Source: Schizochytrium sp. TIO01 (lineage: Eukaryota > Sar > Bigyra > Thraustochytrida > Thraustochytriidae). From it: 64,000 bases of DNA. The translations under genes were made by a program, and so were the position numbers. Below the pieces are notes generated by a model, which saw only the letters and a program-made list of their open reading frames with translations, had not been told where the DNA came from and searched no databases. The stretch spans positions 1,505,501 through 1,569,500 of the forward strand of contig SMSO01000034.1 of the NCBI GenBank assembly GCA_004764695.1, in the 5' to 3' direction. This document shows, piece by piece, positions 2,401 through 63,218 of the stretch (its first letter is position 1; every line of letters begins with the position of its first letter).

Positions 2401-3441
2401 TTACATAGACCCTTCATTCACAATAGACTCAAAGTCAACAATATAAGAAGCGATTACATCCAACTGGTTCATTGCTGCGATTCCCTTGCGAGAAAGCTCA
2501 TCACGAGGCTGATTTCTACTTTTAGAAGCAGTGCCTTCTCGGTCCTCTTTCGATTCCCCATTCGTTCCATCCTCCATGGAATCATGTTGTTGCTGTTGTT
2601 GCTGCTGTTCCTCGGAAGCTTGAAAATGCTTTAAAAAGTTTCCATGGGGCTTTGAGGTGCACCTTTGCAACAGGTTCTCAATTGCCATAAGTGCTTGTCC
2701 AATTTCCAAAGTCCGATCAGAGATGCTTCGAATCTGCCCATCGAGCTCATTCTGCATTCTTAAAGCCTCCGACTCAGCGGTCTCAAGGCGTTTTTGCATG
2801 CTTGCAATCTCATTGTTAAAATTAAGAATTTCGTTCGTCTGTTCCTTTGTATAGTGCACATACTCTGCTCGTTTTGTCTCGTTGGAGTCTTCATATGTCT
2901 GTAAACGCTCTTTCAAATCCGTGTTTGCATCCTTCAATGTTTTATATCGATTCAATAGATCACCAACCTCTGGATAGTCCTCTGGCATCACTTCCTGGAC
3001 AGTTTCCAGGTAACGCTGGTATTTTATATTGCTACCTACTATTTCATCAAGTTCATCACATTGTTTCCGCATTTCATAAAGTTCGCTCTCAAGCTTTCCA
3101 ATTTCACCTTCTTTGAATTTTCTTTGTTTAGCCTCCTCCTGAGCGCGTTTGTCTGCGCGGTTTCTCTTGGATTCGTTTTCCTGCAAGAATTTATTGAATT
3201 TGATTAAAGATTCTTGAAGTTCAAGATCCTTCTTTCGAAGGCCCTCCTCACGTCGATGGAATGCCTCTTCACGCCTTGCGAATTCCTCCTTTTGTGCGTC
3301 AAGCGCTTCTTGCACCTCGAACATTTGTCGACGTTTTTCTAAAAGGCGAGTGGCAGGTGACACATGTTCAAGGACAAGAGCTTGAGGTACTTGTGCCTGC
3401 GTAGCTTCATCATTTCCATCGCTCTTTCCGTGCTTGCGCAT
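2401..3441 (-). CDS. CCDC42/CFAP73-like ciliary coiled-coil protein (DUF4200 type), 346 aa
   Basis: Almost the entire chain is charged coiled coil. Near the N-terminus, the segment from 'SPATRLLEKRR' through 'EEAFHRREEGLRKKDLELQ' to 'LIKFNKFLQEN' is characteristic of the CCDC42/CFAP73 family, whose members are about 300-350 aa, matching this length. In Chlamydomonas the homologue (MIA2) is part of the modifier-of-inner-arms complex on axonemal doublets, so a structural role in inner dynein arm regulation is the family expectation. The middle motif 'YQRYLETV' with 'VGDLLNRYKTL' also fits. The C-terminus has a Gln run (seven Q) and a hydrophilic tail. The first ATG is at 3441; the frame extends upstream only through GTG codons. 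A pyrimidine tract ending in CAG near 3505 could be a 5' UTR intron acceptor. The gene is divergent from the next coiled-coil gene. Confidence 0.75.
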   Translation of the reverse strand: MRKHGKSDGNDEATQAQVPQALVLEHVSPATRLLEKRRQMFEVQEALDAQKEEFARREEAFHRREEGLRKKDLELQESLIKFNKFLQENESKRNRADKRAQEEAKQRKFKEGEIGKLESELYEMRKQCDELDEIVGSNIKYQRYLETVQEVMPEDYPEVGDLLNRYKTLKDANTDLKERLQTYEDSNETKRAEYVHYTKEQTNEILNFNNEIASMQKRLETAESEALRMQNELDGQIRSISDRTLEIGQALMAIENLLQRCTSKPHGNFLKHFQASEEQQQQQQQHDSMEDGTNGESKEDREGTASKSRNQPRDELSRKGIAAMNQLDVIASYIVDFESIVNEGSM

Positions 3442-4271
3442 CTTTTCTAATGTAGGTACCACCACTATGGATAAAGGTCTGATTATGGCTCTTTGGCTAT
3501 CCTCTGCAAAATAACCAACAAATTGCTCTAGTTCACGCTAAATAAGCTGCGCAGCACACATAAACTTGCCTCTCACGCAAGCCACAGCGGGGAGGTTTGC
3601 ACGCTCCTCAACCAAAACTTTTCTTGTCCAGGTCGAAAGTGGAGTCTGCACAAAAGCGACCAAAGCGTTCTCCAAGTTTGCTCAACAATCTCACGAAGCT
3701 ACAGCCACTCTCAATCCGGCACATGCCGTCCAATCGATATAAATTGAAGCACTGACTCTGCACAAAGAATTTCTTTTATTTAGAACCACAGCTAAAGATA
3801 ACGAGAAGATGTTTCTTTTTCTTTCTTTTTTGCGATTAAATTATATCCGTTGAACCGTTCTCTTTAGAACGTAAGATCTTTGCTGTGCACAAATACCATT
3901 AGATTATGTTGTGAATGAGAACCAGCCGAAAATGGCAACTAGAAAAGGCCGTACCAATTGAACGTGCTCTAGTGCGCGGAATATTCATATACTTGGAACG
4001 AAAGTCGCGGTGGTGGTGGTAGTGCCGCTGCTGCCGCTGCTGCCACCGAGTGCTATCTCGGCTCCGAAAAAACTGTATTAAGTGAATTTTAGAGTACAAT
4101 CATACCGACAAGTGAGGATTTAAACTGTTAAGAAGAGAACTTCAACTACAAGAACTTGCGCAATCCATTGTGGACGCGTGTAGCGACAAGGCTACCTGCT
4201 GTCAACCTTTCTTAGTCGTGCGATAATTTGGAAAGGTCGCCAGCATCGAGAAGGACCACAAACCGAGAAGT
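3442..4271. promoter_or_regulatory. Divergent promoter region between two coiled-coil genes
   Basis: About 830 bp separates the divergent starts of the CCDC42/CFAP73-like gene and the next coiled-coil gene. It contains the sequence ATGGCAAC at 3932-3939, which matches one half of the RFX X-box found at many ciliary genes; the other half is not conserved. It also holds a GGT/GCC/GCT trinucleotide-rich patch (about 4012-4048). No start site or TATA box could be fixed. Confidence 0.3.
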
Positions 4272-49995: not shown

Positions 49996-51660
49996 CTAAA
50001 CAAGAAAATCTTTACGAATGGCTTCAATCTCTTCACGAGCACGATCGTGTTCTAGCTCAAGCCTTTCGAGTTCGGAAAGCACTTTGCCTGAAACTTTGTC
50101 CTTATACCTTGATCTGTTCTGTGGAGAAAAGGTGTCGCCCTCAGAATCTGACTCTCCACGCGCAGTTTTCGTGGCACGTACCCTGGGTTTGGGTACGCTT
50201 TTTGCAAACTCAAGAGCACGGTGTCGTGCAGACTGGGCTTTTCGTTTCTCTCGCAAAGCTTGCTCACGAACATCCGGTGCTTGTTTATGGTATACGCGCC
50301 GCGTTTGGTTGGCTAGTTCATCTTCCTCCTGGTTGTTTGCACCTGGAGATTGCTTTATTGCATAGCTCGAAGCTAACGCTGGGGTAATTTGCTTCAATAC
50401 AGGGTTATTATTGAGATTTCGAAGTTTCGAACTATAGGACTTCATGCGCTCCATTTTTTCACGTTTCTTGGCCATTTCCTCTGTATTCAAATCCACCTGG
50501 AGCTTACCCAGCTCGTAGTACCCGTCTGGTTTATTCTTCAGATACTCTTTTGTTGTGCAAGGCTTGTAAGACACGTTTCTATGTTTGCGACTGAAGAATA
50601 GCTGGTCCTTTTCGTTCTTTATCAGGCGCTCATTGGCTTCGTCTTTTGTAGGTCGTTCCTTAGCTTCTTCTTTTTCCTCAGCAAATACATCTGGATCTCG
50701 CCTTCGCTGCCGCTCGTTTCCTCGTTGGCTTTGTTTGTTGGGGGAGTCGTAGGCGGCTCCTTGAGGTTTATGAGCGACAAGTCGTGGACTTACTGATGGA
50801 GGATTCGGCTGAGCATCAACCTGGTGAGGTGAACACCTGTAGGCATGTGTGGTGTCAGAGAAGCCAGGAGAGCTCATTTTCATGTGAGAATATCCATAGA
50901 GCTGTCCACCTAGCTGTCTAGGAATATTGATTTGTGACTGTGTCACCTCTGATGGAAAGGGTTTAGTTGCGGACGACGTTGGTGCCGAATAGTGGCCGGC
51001 TTTTAATCCTGAGGATTGTTGGTCATAGGAAGATGCTACAATATCTTGTAAATCAGCCAGGCTCGGTCTCATTGCGGGTTCCAATGAATCTGCATGAGTT
51101 TTGAATTTATCCTCCGATATCCCATAGCTTCCGGATCTTTGTTTTGCACTATTAGTTGAATAGCTTGTAAAAGTAGAGACAGACGGAGAATTTACCTGCA
51201 CAACAGGTCGCTGGGGCCCAACTTGCACTGAAGAAATTTGCCCGTGGTTTTGAGGAAGAGGCTGCATTTTAGTATGCCCGCTAGTCCCAAGGCTAGAGAA
51301 GCTTCCATTCCCCGACTGTACAGGTGGAAATATCGTGCCGTGACTTTGTTGTAGACTTTGTGTGTTTGGGACACCTCCAGTATTACCAGCTGTCTGCAAT
51401 GAAATGACACTCGTTCTTGCTGCAAACCCTGCATTGCCAAAGTCTTTGCGTAGATTTTCAGGGTTCTGGGCGCTTTGTTGTCTCTCTCTCTGCTGCTGCT
51501 TTAAGGCTTCACGAGATAGTGGTGCACCTCCCTGTCGTTCTCTTGATGCTGGTGCGTGAAGCCTCACATACGAACCGTCCCCTGATGTTTTAAGAATACG
51601 TTGCCCGAATTTCGACTGGAAGCTACCCCCTGCTGTCGGTCCATTACGTGACCTCTTCAT
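49996..51660 (-). CDS. Basic disordered protein with a Jhy-like motif, 554 aa
   Basis: Residues 1-330 are low-complexity Ser/Gln/Gly/Pro. From about 385 the sequence becomes helical and charged. A block near residues 360-425 ('SYKPCTTKEYLKNKPDGYY', 'ELGKLQVDLNTEEMAKKRE', 'MERMKSYSSKLRNLN') resembles the conserved C-terminal segment of Jhy (C11orf63) and similar ciliary proteins, which have a 'KPYTLKEY...YYELGKLxPDL' pattern; this is recalled, not checked. Phospho-site-like SP and SDSEGD motifs follow, and the last 30 residues form a coiled coil. The gene converges on HSL (205-bp gap) and is divergent from the Dad2-like gene. A cilium/axoneme role is inferred. Otherwise it is an orphan. Confidence 0.6.
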   Translation of the reverse strand: MKRSRNGPTAGGSFQSKFGQRILKTSGDGSYVRLHAPASRERQGGAPLSREALKQQQRERQQSAQNPENLRKDFGNAGFAARTSVISLQTAGNTGGVPNTQSLQQSHGTIFPPVQSGNGSFSSLGTSGHTKMQPLPQNHGQISSVQVGPQRPVVQVNSPSVSTFTSYSTNSAKQRSGSYGISEDKFKTHADSLEPAMRPSLADLQDIVASSYDQQSSGLKAGHYSAPTSSATKPFPSEVTQSQINIPRQLGGQLYGYSHMKMSSPGFSDTTHAYRCSPHQVDAQPNPPSVSPRLVAHKPQGAAYDSPNKQSQRGNERQRRRDPDVFAEEKEEAKERPTKDEANERLIKNEKDQLFFSRKHRNVSYKPCTTKEYLKNKPDGYYELGKLQVDLNTEEMAKKREKMERMKSYSSKLRNLNNNPVLKQITPALASSYAIKQSPGANNQEEDELANQTRRVYHKQAPDVREQALREKRKAQSARHRALEFAKSVPKPRVRATKTARGESDSEGDTFSPQNRSRYKDKVSGKVLSELERLELEHDRAREEIEAIRKDFLV

Positions 51661-52723: not shown

Positions 52724-54594
52724 TTACCCACTGTATTCGACACATCGAGATAATGGGATGCCGAGGTTGTCAACAAGTGCAGTCTTGAGCGCTGCCATGA
52801 ACCCAGGAGGCCCGCTCCAACCGTATACAGAGTCAGGTCTGCCACTGACCTGGACAATATCCTGAAGAAAGTTTACATTGTCAACACGGGTACCAATAAT
52901 GTACTCAGTAAAATCCTCATTGGCAGGACTTTCAGAAGCATCTGTAAGAAGGTGAATCACACGAACCTTTGTCGGAAGTTTTGCTTCAGCTGCAAGAGTA
53001 TGCAATGCATCCTTGCCAAGTATGTGGGGAGGAGACTTATTGGCGCAAATGATGGTCACCTGTAGCCCAGCGTTTGCATCTATAGCATTTTGCACAATCT
53101 GCAACATTGGTGTCACACCACTCCCACCAGCAAACAGAAAAACATTTTTAAGGCCTTGGAGAGATGGGAAGGCTTTGTTTAGGGTCGACTCTGAGGCCTT
53201 CACGGTCCCCGGACGAGCAAATACCTTATCCCCAATATTCAGTGAAGCTAGACGCGGGCTCACTTCACCTTTCTCATATACCCGAATCTCGAGATGCACA
53301 AGATGGTTTGAACTAGCCTCTAAACTACGCTTCGCGGAGCGCGCCGGTGTATAGGGTCGATGAACCAGTTCAGACCCTAGAACATTTCCACTCATGACAC
53401 CAATGTCCAAGTGGCGTGTATCAAAAAGGTCCTCCACATCTACAATAGTACCATCCCCAAAATCATTCGTAATGCTGTACAATCGTCGCAAGACTTCTTG
53501 GGCACCATCAAATGTTGTTGCATCTAGTTTTAGAGAGAGGCTGGAGTCGCTGTGTTGTTGCTTTACAGCCACAACAAGTTGTGTCCACTCTACATCATCG
53601 GCACCCATCTCTGCAGCAACAGTACCACCAGCTGCAGCACCTTCCAAAGAGTCAATGTCATCGTGTTCCGTTGTTGTCAGCGATGCAAGCGAGGTGGATA
53701 CATCAGATCGTCCCATATAAGGCGGCATTGCGCCGGGCATACTTCCTTGGGGGGGGGGTGCGAGGCCTGGCATGGTACCCTGGGGAGGAGGCATAGATGA
53801 TGAGTTGCCACGTAACACATGGCCACTTCTTTGTGGGAGTCCGAAGCTTCGCTTTGAATGAACAGGTTTATTGCTAGCTTGTGAAGACCCTCCACAGGTT
53901 GACATACCTCCATAGCTGTCACTATCCCATTTGCCATCCAGATTGAGGGTTACGTAGATTCCATCGGCACGTTCCTCAACTTTGTGAACGCGCTGCGCAT
54001 TTTCTTTTTTCTTCCAACCTCCAGGCACCATTTTTTTATCAGCTGTCATGATGAGTGGCTGATAGAATTTTGAGCCATCCTCCAAGGAGACCTGATACAA
54101 ATGCCATGGGCAAACCAGGCAGGATTCCCCATTGACATCTTCGATATCGCCATTACCAAGCGGGCCTCCTGCATGGTAGCAGGTACTATCCATGCAGTAC
54201 AGCTTGCCACGGTGCCTGAGCACGCTCACATATCTTCCTCGAATTTGCTATAAAGATTAAAAAGTATAGATTTTACCACACATTTGAATCATTGGGAGCC
54301 CCAGGACCAAAGTTCGTCCATAGATGTAGAAATAATTCCCAGGTGTCATATGGACCATGGATATCACAATTGCCCAAAGTATATATTACATTTCTAGAAT
54401 CTTTGCGTGAGTCATCCAGTTTATACTTTGTCGCACTACACTTGTACATACCTTGCATTTCTCAGCGACCTGTGAGTTTGCTATATTGCTCAAACGAAAC
54501 TTACCGTGTGGACTCGGGCTCCGTTCGAAGCGAGTTTGCTCACATCACAGACGCGATGCGGCGTTGAAGTGGATGCGGACGCCGAAGAAGACAT
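52724..54594 (-). CDS. Rieske/cytochrome-b5-reductase-type fusion oxidoreductase, two exons
   Basis: Exon 1 is 54594-54505 (30 codons), exon 2 is 54247-52724; the 257-nt intron has a GTAAGT donor and a TATAG acceptor and joins in phase 0 to give 537 aa. Residues about 25-100 are a Rieske [2Fe-2S] domain with ligands C53-x-H55 and C76-x-x-H79 (TCYHAGGPL, CPWH). A Gly/Pro/Met-rich linker (about 150-205) follows. The C-terminal part is a ferredoxin-reductase-like FAD/NAD module: HRPYTPAR (flavin binding, near 326) and GGSGVTPML (nucleotide binding, near 403), ending WSGPPGFM and CVEYSG. This is a self-contained NAD(P)H to FAD to [2Fe-2S] electron carrier; the acceptor is unknown. Splice and domains are visible; the fusion is unusual relative to human CYB5R4 (b5-CS-reductase). 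Confidence 0.85.
54248..54504 (-). other. Intron in the Rieske/reductase gene
   Basis: 257-nt intron on the reverse strand, GTAAGT at 54504-54499 and TAG ending at 54248. Joining 'RVHT' to 'QIRGRYVSV' supplies a natural N-terminus for the Rieske domain. Confidence 0.75.
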
Positions 54595-56134: not shown

Positions 56135-59100
56135 ATGGAGACCCCTCAGAAAACAATCAACAGCCACAAATCTTCTGATCACAGTGAGGATGTCCAGCTC
56201 GAAGATATCCGACTAGAAGAAGCTAATATCCCAAGCCCCAGTGTTCCTGGCAGCCTATCGGATTCTTTCGCCGCTTTCGGCAGCGCTTCCTCAAATTCTA
56301 CTCCTGAAAACCCTAGTTTGGACGATGATGTTATTGTCTCCAGCCCTTCTAAGGCCTCTGTGATCGAGGTTGACGTGTCTGAATTTACTCCTCGCAAACG
56401 TCGCGGTTCTGTCTCCTCGGCCTCTGATATGCGCAGTCCTCGCCTTGCCTCCCTTCTCAGCCCTACGAGGTCCCTCTGCGAAGGCTTTAGCAACGGTGTT
56501 ACGCTAGAGGAAGTTACGGAGAAGCTTCGTCGTGCTGACGACAAGCGGAGCTCCGTTTTGGGACTACGGAAAGAGAAGGCTGGTGCATGGAGCGAAAAAC
56601 ACCGACGAGCCTCAGAAGCAAGGCGCCGCGAGAGCCTTGAAAAAGCGAGCAACCTCGAGGCAAAACTCCAATCTGCGGAACGCCGTCGCAGTCTTCTCCT
56701 GGAAAAACAACAAGCTTCGGCTGCTGCTCAGGTGATCTACGCTCGAGGTGTGCAAGAAAGTAATGCTGCTTCGCAAGCTGCCGAGAGCTTTGAGAGGCGG
56801 GAGAACCTTGAGGAGAGACTTGAGCAGGCGTCAAAGAGGCGTGAGTCGTTTCTCGACGAGGTCTCTGGCAAAGCAGCAGCAACAACAGGAAGGGTATCCA
56901 CGGCACAAGAGCGAGAACAAGAACATGTACAAGAACGCCGCGAGGAGATTGATCGCAGGCTCTCGCAAGCCGCAGAAGCTCGTGAGGAGATGATTGGCTG
57001 TATCAGAGGCCGTGCTCACGAGCTTTCGGAACGCGTGGAACTTGCTAACGCTGCAGCACAGGCAGAAAAAGACCTTCGTCGCGCAAAGCTCGGATGCAGA
57101 CTCTCCGAAGCAGACCAGAGAAGAGCAGAGCAACTCGCGGCAACCCGTGAGAAAGCGCAGAATGCGAACGAAAAAGTTGTACGTAAGAGCGAGGAACTCG
57201 AGATCATGACTGAAGCACGAATGCAGCAGATTGCAGCGAAGATGGAAAGGGCAGACGAAGCGCGGCTTCAGAATATTGAGGACAAAAAGGCTCGAGCGCA
57301 AATTGTGGCGGAGCGCGTTCAAAGAACTGCTATGGAAAATGCGAGGGAGAACGCAGTGAGGAGGCATACTATTGACACGAAAATGGCAGCTGCAGCAGAA
57401 CAGAGGGACCTCGTGATAAATGAGAAAATGAAACGCGCTGGGCGAAACGGAGAACGCATGGAACGCGTGAAAGAAACAACTGAGAAGAAGGCAGAAGCGC
57501 AACTTGAAAAGGTGCAGGCGAAGCTTGATGAAGCAGCAAGTAAAAGAGCAGATGCTATCGATGCCAAAGTTCGCAAGGCGAGACGCCAGAGTGATCGCGT
57601 GGACCGAGCCAAAGAAGCGGCGAAAGATGTGGCGGATGATCGCCGCAAGAGCATTGAATTCAAGCTCGCCAGAGCTTCGGAAGCTCGTGATGAAATTCTC
57701 TCTGAAAAGGCGGCTCGCGCTGCTGAGGAATCGCGAAAGGTGGCATCGAGCAAGAGTACTCTTGAGGAGCAGGCAGATCGCCGACGACAAAGCCTTGATC
57801 GTAAACTGGGCGAAGCTCTCGAGGCACGCGAGAATATCCTTCAGGAGCGCAAGGAGAAAGCAGCAGCTGTAAATGAACGCGTAGACGAAGCGAGAAGGCA
57901 ATCTTTGGTAGATGCCGAGGCGAAAAGGGAACAAATCGCCAAGAAACTCGCGCAGGCAGAGGCCGCTCGGCAAGCAAAACTATCGATTGTGCAAACTAAG
58001 GCCAGCGATGAATCTGCCAAAGTAGAGGCTGTCGGCCAAGATATCCGACGCCGCCAAAGCGTTGAGTCCGAGCAGGCTCGAGAGCAGCTTGAGCAGCGCC
58101 TTGGAAATGCCTCTGAGAATCGCGAGGCAGTCTTGTCCGATCGCAAATTCCGTGCGACGAAGACTACAGATCGCGTGAACGACCGACTTCGGCAGCTTGA
58201 CGAGCAGACCGAACAAAGACGACGTGAACTCGAGCAGCGTCTTGAGGATGCTGCCGACAAACGATCCTCCAGCGTGGCTCAGAGGCAGGCCAAGGCCGGA
58301 CAGCAGATCTCCAAGGTGGTAACTGCTTCGGTGGCTTCTCGTGAAAGGGAGCGACTTGAGGCCGAAGCAAAGCGGGTTGCCTTAGAGCAACGCCTTGACC
58401 AAGCTGAACGATCGCGCTCGACAGTGTTGGCGTCAATCGCGGGTCGTGCTGCTGCAGAGATCCGCAAGGTTGATGAAGCTTCTGCTCAGGCTGAAGAACG
58501 CGTAGAGGAAATGCGGCGTACAATGGACCAGAAGCTTGAAGTGGCTGCAGAAATCCGTGAAGCTTCATTGCTTATGAAGCAAGTGAAGGCCTCGCAGCAG
58601 TCCACGCGTGTGGCGGACGCCAACATCGCACTCAAAGAGCGGACATCTCACCTCAGTAGCACAAAGCTTCGGCTACTCAATGCCAAGCTGGATCAGGCTC
58701 AGGAAGCGCGTTCCGCGGTTCTCTCGGATGTGGCTGCCAAGGCAGCTATCACGAGCGAGAAGGTGAAGCAAGTCTCTAAGACTCTCGAATCTGCATCGGA
58801 TGCACGCCGTGCCGAGCTGGAGCGTCGTATGGGTTCTGCGGCAAGCCAGCGAGAATGCGTCATTCACTCGAAGCAGGTCAAGGCTAGCTCGCACTCTGCC
58901 CGCGTGGAGGCTGCTGGTGAGGCACTAAAGCGGAACCAGTCTCATGAGCTAAACCAGCGTCGGCGTGATATGGATGATCGCCTTGAACAAGCAGCTGCTT
59001 CTCGGGGCGCTGTGCTCGAGTCTCGAAAGGCGAAGGCAGCCGGGGTCAATGAGAAGGTGGCAGTTGCCCTAGCGGCAATGCAAGATGCTTCGGATGGTGA

Positions 59101-59398
59101 GCGTGTGGCCCTTTCGGAGCGTATTGATACCAAGCTGAACCAAGCTAACCAGCGACGCAGTAGTCATTTGGAGGATACTCAGAAGAGGTCTGCAAAGATT
59201 GCTGAGCATGCGCGAAATGTGGCCAAAGCAAAGCTTGAAGAACAAAACGAAAATGCTGAACGTTCACGCTTGGCCATTTCTAGTAAGCTGGAGTCTGCTG
59301 ATGAGCGCCGTTCCAACATCCTTGCGCAGAAAATGAGTCCTACTCGTGGCACGCGCCGCTCTACAGGAGTTCTGTCACCTGCCAATGGTGCGCGTTAA
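56135..59398 (+). CDS. Coiled-coil protein made of about twenty 47/51-residue repeats, 1087 aa
   Basis: A disordered head (1-125), Ser/Pro-rich with basic SP/TP sites (TPRKRRGS, RSPRL, LSPTRS), precedes about twenty tandem repeats (about 126-1070) of a charged helix, consensus 'L--RL--A---R---L------KA-----KV'. Units measured are 47 residues or 51, the extra four always in the second half: for example units starting SIEFKLARA, SLDRKLGEA and ALEQRLDQA are 47; QIAKKLAQA, ELEQRLEDA and ELERRMGSA are 51. The tail has MSPTRGTRRSTG and LSPANG. The unit resembles stathmin-like and other cytoskeletal coils, but I do not recognise a named family. It should form a continuous rod of the order of 140 nm if fully helical. 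SP/TP-basic ends suggest CDK regulation. No introns. Confidence 0.8.
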   Translation: METPQKTINSHKSSDHSEDVQLEDIRLEEANIPSPSVPGSLSDSFAAFGSASSNSTPENPSLDDDVIVSSPSKASVIEVDVSEFTPRKRRGSVSSASDMRSPRLASLLSPTRSLCEGFSNGVTLEEVTEKLRRADDKRSSVLGLRKEKAGAWSEKHRRASEARRRESLEKASNLEAKLQSAERRRSLLLEKQQASAAAQVIYARGVQESNAASQAAESFERRENLEERLEQASKRRESFLDEVSGKAAATTGRVSTAQEREQEHVQERREEIDRRLSQAAEAREEMIGCIRGRAHELSERVELANAAAQAEKDLRRAKLGCRLSEADQRRAEQLAATREKAQNANEKVVRKSEELEIMTEARMQQIAAKMERADEARLQNIEDKKARAQIVAERVQRTAMENARENAVRRHTIDTKMAAAAEQRDLVINEKMKRAGRNGERMERVKETTEKKAEAQLEKVQAKLDEAASKRADAIDAKVRKARRQSDRVDRAKEAAKDVADDRRKSIEFKLARASEARDEILSEKAARAAEESRKVASSKSTLEEQADRRRQSLDRKLGEALEARENILQERKEKAAAVNERVDEARRQSLVDAEAKREQIAKKLAQAEAARQAKLSIVQTKASDESAKVEAVGQDIRRRQSVESEQAREQLEQRLGNASENREAVLSDRKFRATKTTDRVNDRLRQLDEQTEQRRRELEQRLEDAADKRSSSVAQRQAKAGQQISKVVTASVASRERERLEAEAKRVALEQRLDQAERSRSTVLASIAGRAAAEIRKVDEASAQAEERVEEMRRTMDQKLEVAAEIREASLLMKQVKASQQSTRVADANIALKERTSHLSSTKLRLLNAKLDQAQEARSAVLSDVAAKAAITSEKVKQVSKTLESASDARRAELERRMGSAASQRECVIHSKQVKASSHSARVEAAGEALKRNQSHELNQRRRDMDDRLEQAAASRGAVLESRKAKAAGVNEKVAVALAAMQDASDGERVALSERIDTKLNQANQRRSSHLEDTQKRSAKIAEHARNVAKAKLEEQNENAERSRLAISSKLESADERRSNILAQKMSPTRGTRRSTGVLSPANGAR

Positions 59399-61206: not shown

Positions 61207-61325
61207 ATGCATCAATCAATCAACCAACACATCAACACATCAATACACATCAATACACATCAATCAATCAATCAATACATCAATACATCAATACATCAAT
61301 ACATCAATACATCAATACATCAATC
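61207..61325. repeat. (ATCA)/(CATCAATA)n microsatellite
   Basis: ATCA units pass into an 8-bp unit CATCAATA repeated several times. Translated on the forward strand it yields Gln/Ile/Asn/His, giving a spurious open frame. Confidence 0.9.
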
Positions 61326-61391
61326 CCCTCAACTCAACGTAGTCTCGAGGAGGCTCAAATCAAGCACGGACTCAGCTCACCAAAGTAGCTC

Positions 61392-61443
61392 AACAAAAGC
61401 CAAAAGCCAAAAGCCAAAAGCCAAAAGCCAAAAGCCAAAAGCT
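61392..61443. repeat. (AAAAGCC)n 7-bp repeat
   Basis: About six units CAAAAGC in succession. Confidence 0.9.
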
Positions 61444-61575
61444 AAGCCAAAGCTTCGTTGTTCTGAAGCTTCTCCCGAGGTCACTCACTCACTCGCATTC
61501 GGTGTCTTCTTGGCGCCTTTGGTTGGCGTCCTTCGCGTCCATGTTCCCATCGCTGCGAAGGACCGCAGCAGCAGC

Positions 61576-61600
61576 AAGAAAGAAAGAAAGAAAGAAAGAA
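61576..61600. repeat. (GAAA)n microsatellite
   Basis: Six GAAA units. It is a short repeat of the same kind as the TTTC tract at 23356. Confidence 0.85.
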
Positions 61601-61799
61601 CTCCTCTGCGTCAGTGAGTGCGTCTTCAACCCAGCTCACTGACCCTGGGTTGGCGCACGGGGGACCAGGGTTGGTAGGGCCCCGCTAGCCGTGGCTAGGG
61701 GAAAATGTGGCGCCCCGGGACCAGCAGTTCCGCAGTATTGCGCAATACAACAAAATACAATCAATAAGCTGAGGACGAGAAACAACCTCAGGTTGGCAC

Positions 61800-61825: not shown

Positions 61826-62493
61826 ACATTCATACACTCACTCAGACACTCAGACACGCGTTGATGCATACATGGAAACAGCGGAGCGCGTTTCGTAAGA
61901 CTTGGAGTTCTGCGAGTTGGCGTTTTCTTCGATGCCGGGCTGGAAGTGGACAGAATGGATTGGATTCCAAGATCGATGCATCAACTAACTCAACGACGGC
62001 GAGAACCACCTACCAGGCAAGACCTGCCGGAGCATCGACCGATATCGCGGCATGAGGTGCTAACGACAGGCGGACCAGACTCTGCTTTTGCATTTATCGC
62101 AATCGATCCACGAATACGCTCGGCATTTCAAGCTGCCAGCCGGGAGCTCTTGAAGGGCACCGGCAGGAGCAGCAATTGAATTGAATTCCGCAGCAGAGCC
62201 CAGGGAGCGTAGCCAAACGCCTAAGTGGCGCCTAGTGGCGACCAATTGATGGATCAATTTGCCCTCGGTCTGGTATTAGCTGCACCATGCTCATAAACGA
62301 AGCGATTCGAAGTTAGCATTGTGGAAGCTAAAGGATCAATCACCTGGGTTAAGAAAGGCCAACCCAACGCCACGCCAGCCTCACCTGCTGCTGTTGAACC
62401 TGGTACTGCCATAGACCCAGGCTTCCTTACCCCACCATGGACCAGGCAGAACCCAGAGTCCAGGATCCATCGCCAAGGCCACAGAACAAGTAA

Positions 62494-62525
62494 GTACGTA
62501 CGTACGTACGTACGTACGTACGTAT
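62494..62525. repeat. (ACGT)n self-complementary microsatellite
   Basis: About eight ACGT units; every unit is its own reverse complement, so the tract can fold on itself. Confidence 0.9.
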
Positions 62526-63218
62526 TATACAGCACACTCCTCAAAGACCATCCCAGCTACACTCCCCCCGTTCCCACTATTCTCTCTGTTACCTTTATTA
62601 CCTACGTTACCTTGGTTCCCTATGTTCACATTGTTACCCTCGTTACCTTGGGCTCGAAGCGAGGATATCCTTGGAGATACGTTAGATCATGATATTCTCG
62701 ATCATGCGTGATATACTTGATCTTCAGTGATATGCTTTTGTATAGGAACGAATAGATGCGGGTTCCCAGCTAGTGTGGTGTGGGTACAGTTTGGGGTAGG
62801 AAGCTGGGTAGTCGGAAAGCGCCTTGGCGGGATCCGAGCGAGCGGAATCCGCCTTTGCGCGATCCTGGGGTCTGAAGATTGGCAAAGGTTGGCGAGGAAG
62901 AAAGCCTCGTGGAAAGCGTCTTGGCACCCGGCAGACACGTAACTCTTGGCTGCGACCTGCCTTGATATTGCAAACATAGCAGGTGCCGCGAAAGAGGGCT
63001 CAAAGACTTTGTTTGGGTGCTTTTCAGGATTCGTTGGAGGAGGACAAGAAGAGGAGGGAGGAGGTACGAGAAGAAGAGGCAAAATAGGGGCCTCGGCGAG
63101 CTTCGTGAGGAAGGCTTCGAGCGGCGTCCTGGTGGCAGGAGCTGCTGTCTGGGGCGAACACGCTTTTGCAGGAAAGACAATTGCTCGGGCTGCAAGTACG
63201 TGTACTGAGAACAACATC

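Follow-up and report, generated by a model that had tools for sequence, protein, structure and literature searches.

What kind of protein is encoded by the long repetitive reading frame at positions 56135..59398 (+ strand) of the 64-kb window, by which we mean the whole stretch of DNA analysed here, and what might its repeats bind? The frame is an intact, intronless ORF of 1087 codons plus a stop codon (1087 aa), and the chance of finding 1087 open codons at the local base composition is about 6e-24. The frame stays open for 39 codons before the ATG as well, which gives an open frame of 1126 aa. The 64-Mb genome is that of a single-celled eukaryote, probably a thraustochytrid, and a consensus-unit search of it found no second gene with such an array, and the viral and prokaryotic collections yielded 0 relatives of the protein. 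The window also encodes the ciliary helix proteins JHY and DUF4200, and TPH proteins are further ciliary helix proteins of the genome.

The earlier note had described about twenty repeats in which units of 47 residues alternate irregularly with units of 51, by exact insertions of four residues. PSSM segmentation confirmed the twenty and made the number exact, with the last unit shortened. All 19 spacings were found to be exactly 47 (12 times) or 51 residues (7 times), in the order 47, 51, eight times 47, 51, 47, 51, 47, 51, 47, 51, 51, 51. With a held-out PSSM and spacings of 30 to 65 residues permitted, the best spacing was again 47 or 51 in 19 of 19 cases. The autocorrelation, which had been proposed as a check, has its maxima at 47 (z 14.4), 98 (12.6) and 51 (7.8), followed by 196, 94 and 145. 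On the + strand, unit 1 (47 residues) occupies 56498..56638 and unit 2 (51) occupies 56639..56791. Units 3 to 10, all of 47 residues, lie at 56792..56932, 56933..57073, 57074..57214, 57215..57355, 57356..57496, 57497..57637, 57638..57778 and 57779..57919. They are followed by units 11 (51; 57920..58072), 12 (47; 58073..58213), 13 (51; 58214..58366), 14 (47; 58367..58507), 15 (51; 58508..58660) and 16 (47; 58661..58801), by units 17 to 19, each of 51 residues (58802..58954, 58955..59107 and 59108..59260), and by the partial unit 20 (positions 1-25; 59261..59335).

Within each unit, positions 2-38 form a conserved block of about 37 residues, and the remaining 9 or 13 residues constitute a linker that is free to vary. 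The additional four residues are placed within this unconserved linker, after unit position ~35-44, and thus always in the second half of the unit, as had been claimed. The mean core-to-core identity among units is 28% for protein and 40% for DNA. Such low identity points to an old, selected repeat and not to a recent tandem array of DNA.

The hydrophobic period of the array shows a sharp peak at 3.62-3.625 residues per turn over 921 residues. At this value 47 residues make 13 turns and 51 residues make 14, as the earlier note had proposed, and the hydrophobic stripe remains in phase along the entire array, or 254 turns. Together with the held-out spacing test, this periodicity supports selection for whole helical turns. 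The notion of a single continuous rod is also supported, since the AF2 (AlphaFold) model of a three-unit stretch is one uninterrupted helix spanning residues 2-148 with a mean pLDDT of 95.3. More than 900 residues are free of proline, glycines are few, and the composition is charged and rich in A, R, E, K and Q. The stripe is one-sided in each unit and consists of L6, K/R9, L10, A13, R17, L21, K/R27, A28, K/R34 and V35. Of these, A13, R17, K/R9, K/R27 and A28 line one face, in agreement with the suggested periodic lattice of R, A and K. R17 is invariant, and another basic residue, K/R24, lies on what would be the core face of a coiled coil.

Stathmin is generally regarded as an animal protein that has two sites for tubulin, and its layout is 35+16 (conserved block plus linker). 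Searches with the whole protein gave nothing in the PDB or in Pfam, where the result was empty even at E 1, so that a full-length match to an ordinary non-repetitive family, which would have spoken against the repeat reading, is absent. A signal arises only from unit or two-unit queries. In Pfam scans of two-unit segments, the Stathmin family (PF00836) was matched by 8 of 19 segments with a best E of 3.4e-4, and the next family by 2 of 19. Individual E-values are 0.056 for units 5-6, 0.00034 for units 11-12, 0.0027 for units 15-16 and 0.0013 for units 19-20. In the reversed-sequence control, the top family was ATG14 (4/19, best E 0.23), the lowest E for any family was 0.0072, and Stathmin was absent among the best 25 of 43 families. 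Stathmin is the one family that matched in these scans among those put forward for comparison. In non-overlapping segments, all four Stathmin matches begin at the same offset of 41 between unit and profile (position n against n+41), and the 47-spaced pair aligns to the profile with a four-residue difference. The best score, 21.0 bits for units 11-12, lies below the gathering cut-off of 24.7 bits, as does the score of the 20-unit protein in a whole-genome search with the Stathmin HMM (16.8 bits). The best match in the genome to this HMM (L004, 20.3 bits) was rejected as a candidate, as it is a distinct non-repetitive ORF whose match looks like a generic A..RR helix.

A more direct comparison was made with a one-unit profile. 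In hmmsearch against 177,635 PDB sequences, all 21 matches at E<=10 were stathmins, and the profile aligned with both of their tubulin-binding repeats, 51 residues apart. The E-values of 0.016-0.025 are not counted as significant, since the reversed profile matched troponin I at a similar value (0.026). In a PSSM scan of stathmin-4, the top two of about 60 offsets were its two repeats, about 20 bits over the third. The paired score, which includes the likeness between stathmin's own two repeats, was beaten by none of 4000 shuffles that preserve the helical face and by none of 162 decoy charged-helix windows (z ~6), which are mostly coiled-coil ORFs of the 20-unit protein's own genome. The single-unit match was modest (p ~0.007 for the face-preserving shuffles, and equalled by 1 of the 162 decoys).

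The likeness extends to several features. In both proteins the helical units carry the pattern [IL]xx[KR][LM]xxAxxxR...; unit 1 starts with VTLEEVTEKLRRADDKRSS (compare LEEIQKKLEAAEERRK in stathmin repeat 1), and unit 12 contains ENREAVL (compare ENREAHL in repeat 2). The tandem repeats of the array are in register with R1 and R2, the stathmin spacing of 51 recurs in 7 of the 19 intervals, a conserved block of ~35-37 residues is followed by a short linker, the repeats share one continuous helix (in the AF2 model of three units), and SP/TP sites adjoin the first unit. There are differences too: 12 of the 19 spacings are 47, and stathmin has E or M/L at the array's V35, K24 and A28. Vertebrate stathmins bind two tubulin dimers and some Drosophila isoforms four (PMC5090033, PMC3694009), whereas the array has 20 units. 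A third Drosophila repeat, 47 residues after the second, was dropped from the comparison, as just R1 and R2, 51 apart, were matched in a scan of the sequence. The N-terminus of the protein resembled that of stathmin by eye, but this was rejected on shuffle tests of local alignments with stathmin-1 (p 0.09 and 0.56). The closest known protein is stathmin. We call this protein of a non-animal host stathmin-like, with membership unproven, because its score is under the Pfam cut-off, an N-terminal cap, the segment by which stathmin contacts alpha-tubulin, is undetectable and the PDB E-values are no better than that of the reversed profile.

SCAPER, a factor of tubulin-mRNA autoregulation, carries an N-domain plus a C-terminal ribosome-binding domain. 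The SCAPER of this genome (L003; Pfam SCAPER_N, PF16501, E 9.3e-13) holds two array-type units, 47 apart, and its central alpha-helical domain shares with the array the pattern through KAxxxxxKV, although SCAPER has only these two units. Their pair score of 57.8 is within the range of held-out pairs from the array itself (mean 60.5, min 34.6) and closer than that of stathmin (5.4), and human SCAPER also matches the first unit (14.3). The SCAPER helical domain alone has no Pfam Stathmin match. The array could be derived from SCAPER and its units could bind the partner of the SCAPER helical domain, for example one linked to mRNA decay or the ribosome, and not tubulin. We consider this decidedly unlikely. 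Human SCAPER binds CNOT11 through F628, I629 and L632 (PMC10403363), and these residues map to unit positions 40, 41 and 44, which belong to the linker. The array has mostly E, A/T and E/R there, so the CNOT11-binding FI..L residues are not kept, and Pfam finds neither SCAPER_N nor the SCAPER C-terminal domain in the 20-unit protein. Furthermore, as SCAPER acts on tubulin supply, such an origin would be compatible with tubulin as the ligand. A 2024 study of TTC5 (PMC11570694) leaves it undecided whether SCAPER should be added to the factors regulated by colchicine.

The same helix could also be structural: as a single long alpha-helix, or paired in a weak parallel dimer, it would serve as a ruler or spacer within the flagellar apparatus, the centrosome or the cell cortex. 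The partner of the repeat would then be a filament protein and not soluble tubulin, and the likeness to stathmin would be a convergence of charged helices. The proline-free, glycine-poor and charged composition, the predicted continuous helix with its phase maintained over the full length, the presence of other ciliary helix proteins in the genome (JHY, DUF4200, TPH) and PDB scores no better than those of the reversed control all fit this explanation. However, a spacer has no need of an invariant arginine and near-invariant Lys/Arg in its stripe, and in every unit conservation ends at position 38 and gives way to a free linker, which resembles a binding site plus a spacer. Moreover, stathmin and SCAPER score with the profile of the repeat, and charged-helix decoys from the same genome do not. 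We regard a structural rod as somewhat unlikely. A filament protein with a canonical left-handed coiled coil, similar to SF-assemblin, rootletin or tropomyosin, would likewise be long, repetitive and helical, but appears highly improbable, because the period is 3.62 and not 3.5 and because the core face would bear the invariant R17 together with basic residues (K/R24); no such family is among the matches listed in the Pfam segment scans. The word "coiled-coil" in the earlier description is thus not supported, and on the predicted model the array reads as a single straight helix.

The ends of the protein differ from the array. The N-terminal region (residues 1-121; 56135..56497, + strand) has few conserved features, looks disordered and has no match in Pfam. 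It is enriched in SP/TP sites (n=7, p 0.004), four of which match the full CDK consensus [ST]P.[KR] (T3, S70, T85 and S109), and S101 and S109 precede unit 1. The basic C-terminal tail (59336..59395, + strand) contains SPTR (S1068) and LSPA (S1081). The ends do, then, carry the SP/TP-basic sites that had been noted there. Units 1, 3, 13 and 19 carry the motif [RK][RK]xS at their position 19. In stathmin, the regulatory phosphoserines comprise two SP sites ahead of R1 and one basic site within it.

Our preferred reading, to which we give a little less than an even chance, is that of a tubulin-binding helix with 20 sites and phospho-regulated ends, which stores or aligns tubulin dimers like a greatly extended stathmin. 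Each conserved block would hold one alpha/beta-tubulin dimer, with the basic stripe facing the acidic surface of tubulin. At ~1.5 Å per residue, successive dimers would be aligned head to tail on the helix roughly 70 or 76 Å apart, and a full molecule could carry up to about 20 of them, in the form of a storage string or of a curved protofilament. With every insertion of four residues the helix would gain one turn, so that the spacing would change while the stripe kept its direction. The spacing in a straight protofilament is ~80 Å. As ~70 Å is well below this and also shorter than stathmin's 51-residue spacing, the simultaneous filling of neighbouring 47-spaced sites is uncertain. Kinases acting on the terminal SP/TP sites may switch the protein, as phosphorylation switches stathmin. 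A plausible use would be a pool of tubulin released for spindle or flagellar microtubules. TOG-domain arrays (XMAP215/CLASP) have the idea of serial tubulin-binding sites in common with this helix, but they are HEAT-repeat domains on flexible linkers.

A wider reading, which we think unlikely, is that stathmin, SCAPER and the array have in common an ancient, pre-animal helical tubulin-binding unit. It would have been multiplied here to 20 sites so that one molecule templates or stores a row of tubulin as long as a protofilament, with the spacing tuned locally in steps of four residues, and the SCAPER helix would touch tubulin directly. The presence of an array-type unit in SCAPER does make a specific prediction, namely that tubulin may be bound by the helix of SCAPER; this would be relevant to the control of tubulin mRNA by soluble tubulin. 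If the unit is indeed ancient, tubulin mRNA autoregulation would, through this contact, gain a step that senses tubulin. If it binds tubulin, the 20-site helix would make it possible to hold defined oligomers of tubulin in vitro, and it would serve as a test case for the way in which protofilament curvature depends on helix phase and spacing. A 20-site relative or mimic of stathmin in a distant lineage would, if true, represent a natural molecular ruler for tubulin.

The intronless ORF at 56135-59398 (plus strand) encodes a protein of 1087 residues, a length far above chance expectation. Self-comparison of this array protein shows sharp peaks at 47 (z 14.4), 98 (z 12.6) and 51 (z 7.8) residues. 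Using the anchor motif [KR][LM]xxAxxxR and then a PSSM, we located 20 units, whose spacings, in order, are 47, 51, 47 (eight times), 51, 47, 51, 47, 51, 47, 51, 51 and 51, with no other value. When both units concerned were excluded from the PSSM and spacings of 30-65 were permitted, 19 of 19 spacings again came out as 47 or 51. The earlier note's reading of the chain as 47- and 51-residue units is thus accurate to the residue, and the 47-residue peak it had looked for is present. The units are only 28% identical to each other and their DNA 40%, and hence the array is old. Its second-order pattern is weak, with units two or five apart being slightly more alike.

Five positions are kept in all 20 units (K/R9, L/M10, A13, R17 and L/I/V21), and A28 is found in 18. 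Altogether, 19 positions, the first being 2 and the last 38, are conserved above the 99% chance level, and positions 39-47 (or 51) are free to vary. In long units the four additional residues lie in or beside this free part, in the second half of the unit as had been proposed; they are best placed after position 44, with placement after 38 nearly equal. Mapped onto a helix, the conservation is one-sided. The center of the conserved face is formed by the hydrophobic residues L6, L10, A13, L21, A28 and V35 together with R17, one flank carries K/R9, K/R27 and K/R34 (mean charge of the sector +0.57), and the back of the helix is acidic and variable.

Over the 921 residues of the array, hydrophobicity shows one sharp peak, at a period of 3.62-3.625 residues. 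The 12 × 47 + 7 × 51 residues make 254 turns, 13 per short unit and 14 per long one, which bears out the turn arithmetic of the earlier note. Its coiled-coil label, however, does not agree with this period, as 3.5 is expected for a left-handed coiled coil. With whole turns in every unit, the hydrophobic stripe forms a straight line down an ordinary alpha-helix. AlphaFold2, given three units and five further three-unit rows as the alignment, predicted one helix (residues 2-148 of 149, mean pLDDT 95.3) and neither a hairpin nor a bundle. A helix call is unsurprising for so charged a sequence, and the worth of the model lies in the predicted absence of a hairpin or bundle.

The whole array protein had zero matches in Pfam and the PDB. 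A 47-position profile matched 21 entries in the PDB at E up to 10, all of them stathmins (best E 0.025), and both tubulin-binding repeats of stathmin, R1 and R2, aligned at identical profile positions, 51 residues apart. The top 19 rows for a two-unit profile were also stathmins (best E 0.016). These rows are a single family repeated many times, and the reversed two-unit profile reached troponin I at E 0.026, so the PDB E-values by themselves prove nothing. Scans of the 19 two-unit segments, each run singly against 24,736 Pfam families, are more telling: Stathmin was matched by eight segments (best E 3.4e-4) and the next families by two. The commonest family among reversed segments was matched by four of them (best E 0.23); E fell no lower than 0.0072 in any family, and Stathmin was absent among the 25 of 43 families listed. 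In ten non-overlapping segments, Stathmin was the top match of four (E 3.4e-4, 0.0013, 0.0027 and 0.056), three of which are 51-spaced pairs aligned with no net gap and the fourth a 47-spaced pair with a 4-residue difference. In all four, the profile position equals the unit position plus 41, a shared register that, as the units are mutually homologous, is consistency rather than four independent proofs.

In a direct comparison, the unit PSSM was slid over about 60 offsets along the stathmin-4 letters given in the two-unit-profile PDB alignment. The two best offsets were the two tubulin-binding repeats, 51 apart and about 20 bits over the third. Their paired score was exceeded by none of 4000 shuffles preserving each residue's helical face (z about 6), and the best single score had p 0.007. 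Among 162 charged-helix decoy windows, taken from Schizochytrium ORFs at loci fetched as TPH or DUF4200 matches and others, the paired score was reached by none and the single score by one. Stathmin-1, stathmin-2 and Drosophila stathmin sequences gave a like result with repeats 51 apart. We read the agreement with stathmin in architecture and register as far greater than chance would give, and descent from one common tubulin-binding unit as likely, though not proven. Separately, a stretch of a 2070-codon ORF at G000:C32:802283 (locus L034), RLQQVRERLRQARERKSQILEERQQQQSLYHSRV, outscores stathmin with the unit PSSM, with a single unit there.

Residues 1-121 hold seven SP/TP sites where shuffled sequences would have 2.75 (p 0.004); four of the seven match the full CDK consensus, and the C-terminus carries SPTR and LSPA, as the earlier note had indicated in placing SP/TP-basic sites at the ends. 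Stathmin is switched via phosphorylation of four serines (PMC3694009), and the array protein may be phospho-switched as well. A stathmin cap suspected by eye in the N-terminus was rejected by shuffles. As the protein, unlike stathmin, has no detectable cap and falls below Pfam's cut-off for Stathmin (PF00836), we class it as stathmin-like by its working principle.

Only one other gene in the genome resembles the array protein at E < 1 (BLAST E 0.117, 239 residues). It is the SCAPER orthologue L003 (contig C31, around 4242481-4243203, minus strand), identified by SCAPER_N (E 9.3e-13) and a match to human SCAPER of PDB 8bpo (E 0.0011). Its helical domain contains two units 47 apart (HMM 19.0 and 13.8 bits), whose pair score of 57.8 is within the range of the array's own held-out pairs; in human SCAPER the first unit alone is well kept. 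The SCAPER helix had no match to Pfam Stathmin. In humans, tubulin autoregulation depends on the helical domain of SCAPER, whose residues F628, I629 and L632 bind CNOT11 (PMC10403363). Counted along the 8bpo alignment, these are unit positions 40, 41 and 44, i.e. in the linker, and they are absent from the array. Hence, the conserved block of the SCAPER units lies apart from the residues known to bind CNOT11 and, because the pathway controls tubulin mRNA, tubulin is an obvious candidate partner for it, a lead rather than a result. The genome also encodes TTC5 (L041, G000:C31:7654060-7654386, TTC5_OB, E 7e-12), which together with SCAPER suggests that tubulin mRNA autoregulation is present in Schizochytrium sp. 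TIO01.

The genome that holds the window (G000:C33:1505501-1569500) is eukaryotic (64 Mb) and contains a large, intron-poor PfaA-type PUFA synthase (G000:C4:608161-617209, 1031 + 2172 codons across two frames), to which the PfaA model gives 1157 bits across several stretches of one frame. It encodes the ciliary protein families JHY, DUF4200 and TPH; two such proteins (JHY, DUF4200) share the window with the array protein, at 49996-51660 and 2401-3465 on the minus strand. With SCAPER and TTC5, these genes, the PUFA synthase above all, point to a probable thraustochytrid (Labyrinthulomycetes, stramenopiles), a group whose zoospores are flagellated. A single ORF at 52724-54229 (minus strand) joins an N-terminal soluble Rieske domain to a C-terminal NAD-binding reductase domain through a Gly/Pro/Ser-rich connector. 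The ORFs of short tandem peptide repeats at 61207-61617 (HQSINQYINTS...) and 62254-62692 (YVRTYVRTY...) probably represent simple DNA repeats read as protein.

Each tubulin-binding region of a stathmin takes up one tubulin dimer, the vertebrate protein carrying two dimers and certain Drosophila isoforms four (PMC5090033). We infer tubulin as the ligand of the array protein, with one dimer per conserved block by analogy. A +4 insertion adds one turn and alters the spacing, while the stripe would still face the ligand, which would explain why only 47 and 51 occur. At about 1.5 Å per residue, the sites would be roughly 70 Å (47) or 76 Å (51) apart. As the dimer repeat of a straight protofilament is ~80 Å, the complex would need to bend, the helix lying on the inner side, and the mostly 47-spaced N-terminal half would be more tightly curved than the mostly 51-spaced C-terminal half. 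The main physical doubt is whether neighboring 47-spaced sites can be filled simultaneously. If tubulin binding is confirmed, this would be, to our knowledge, the longest array of its kind.
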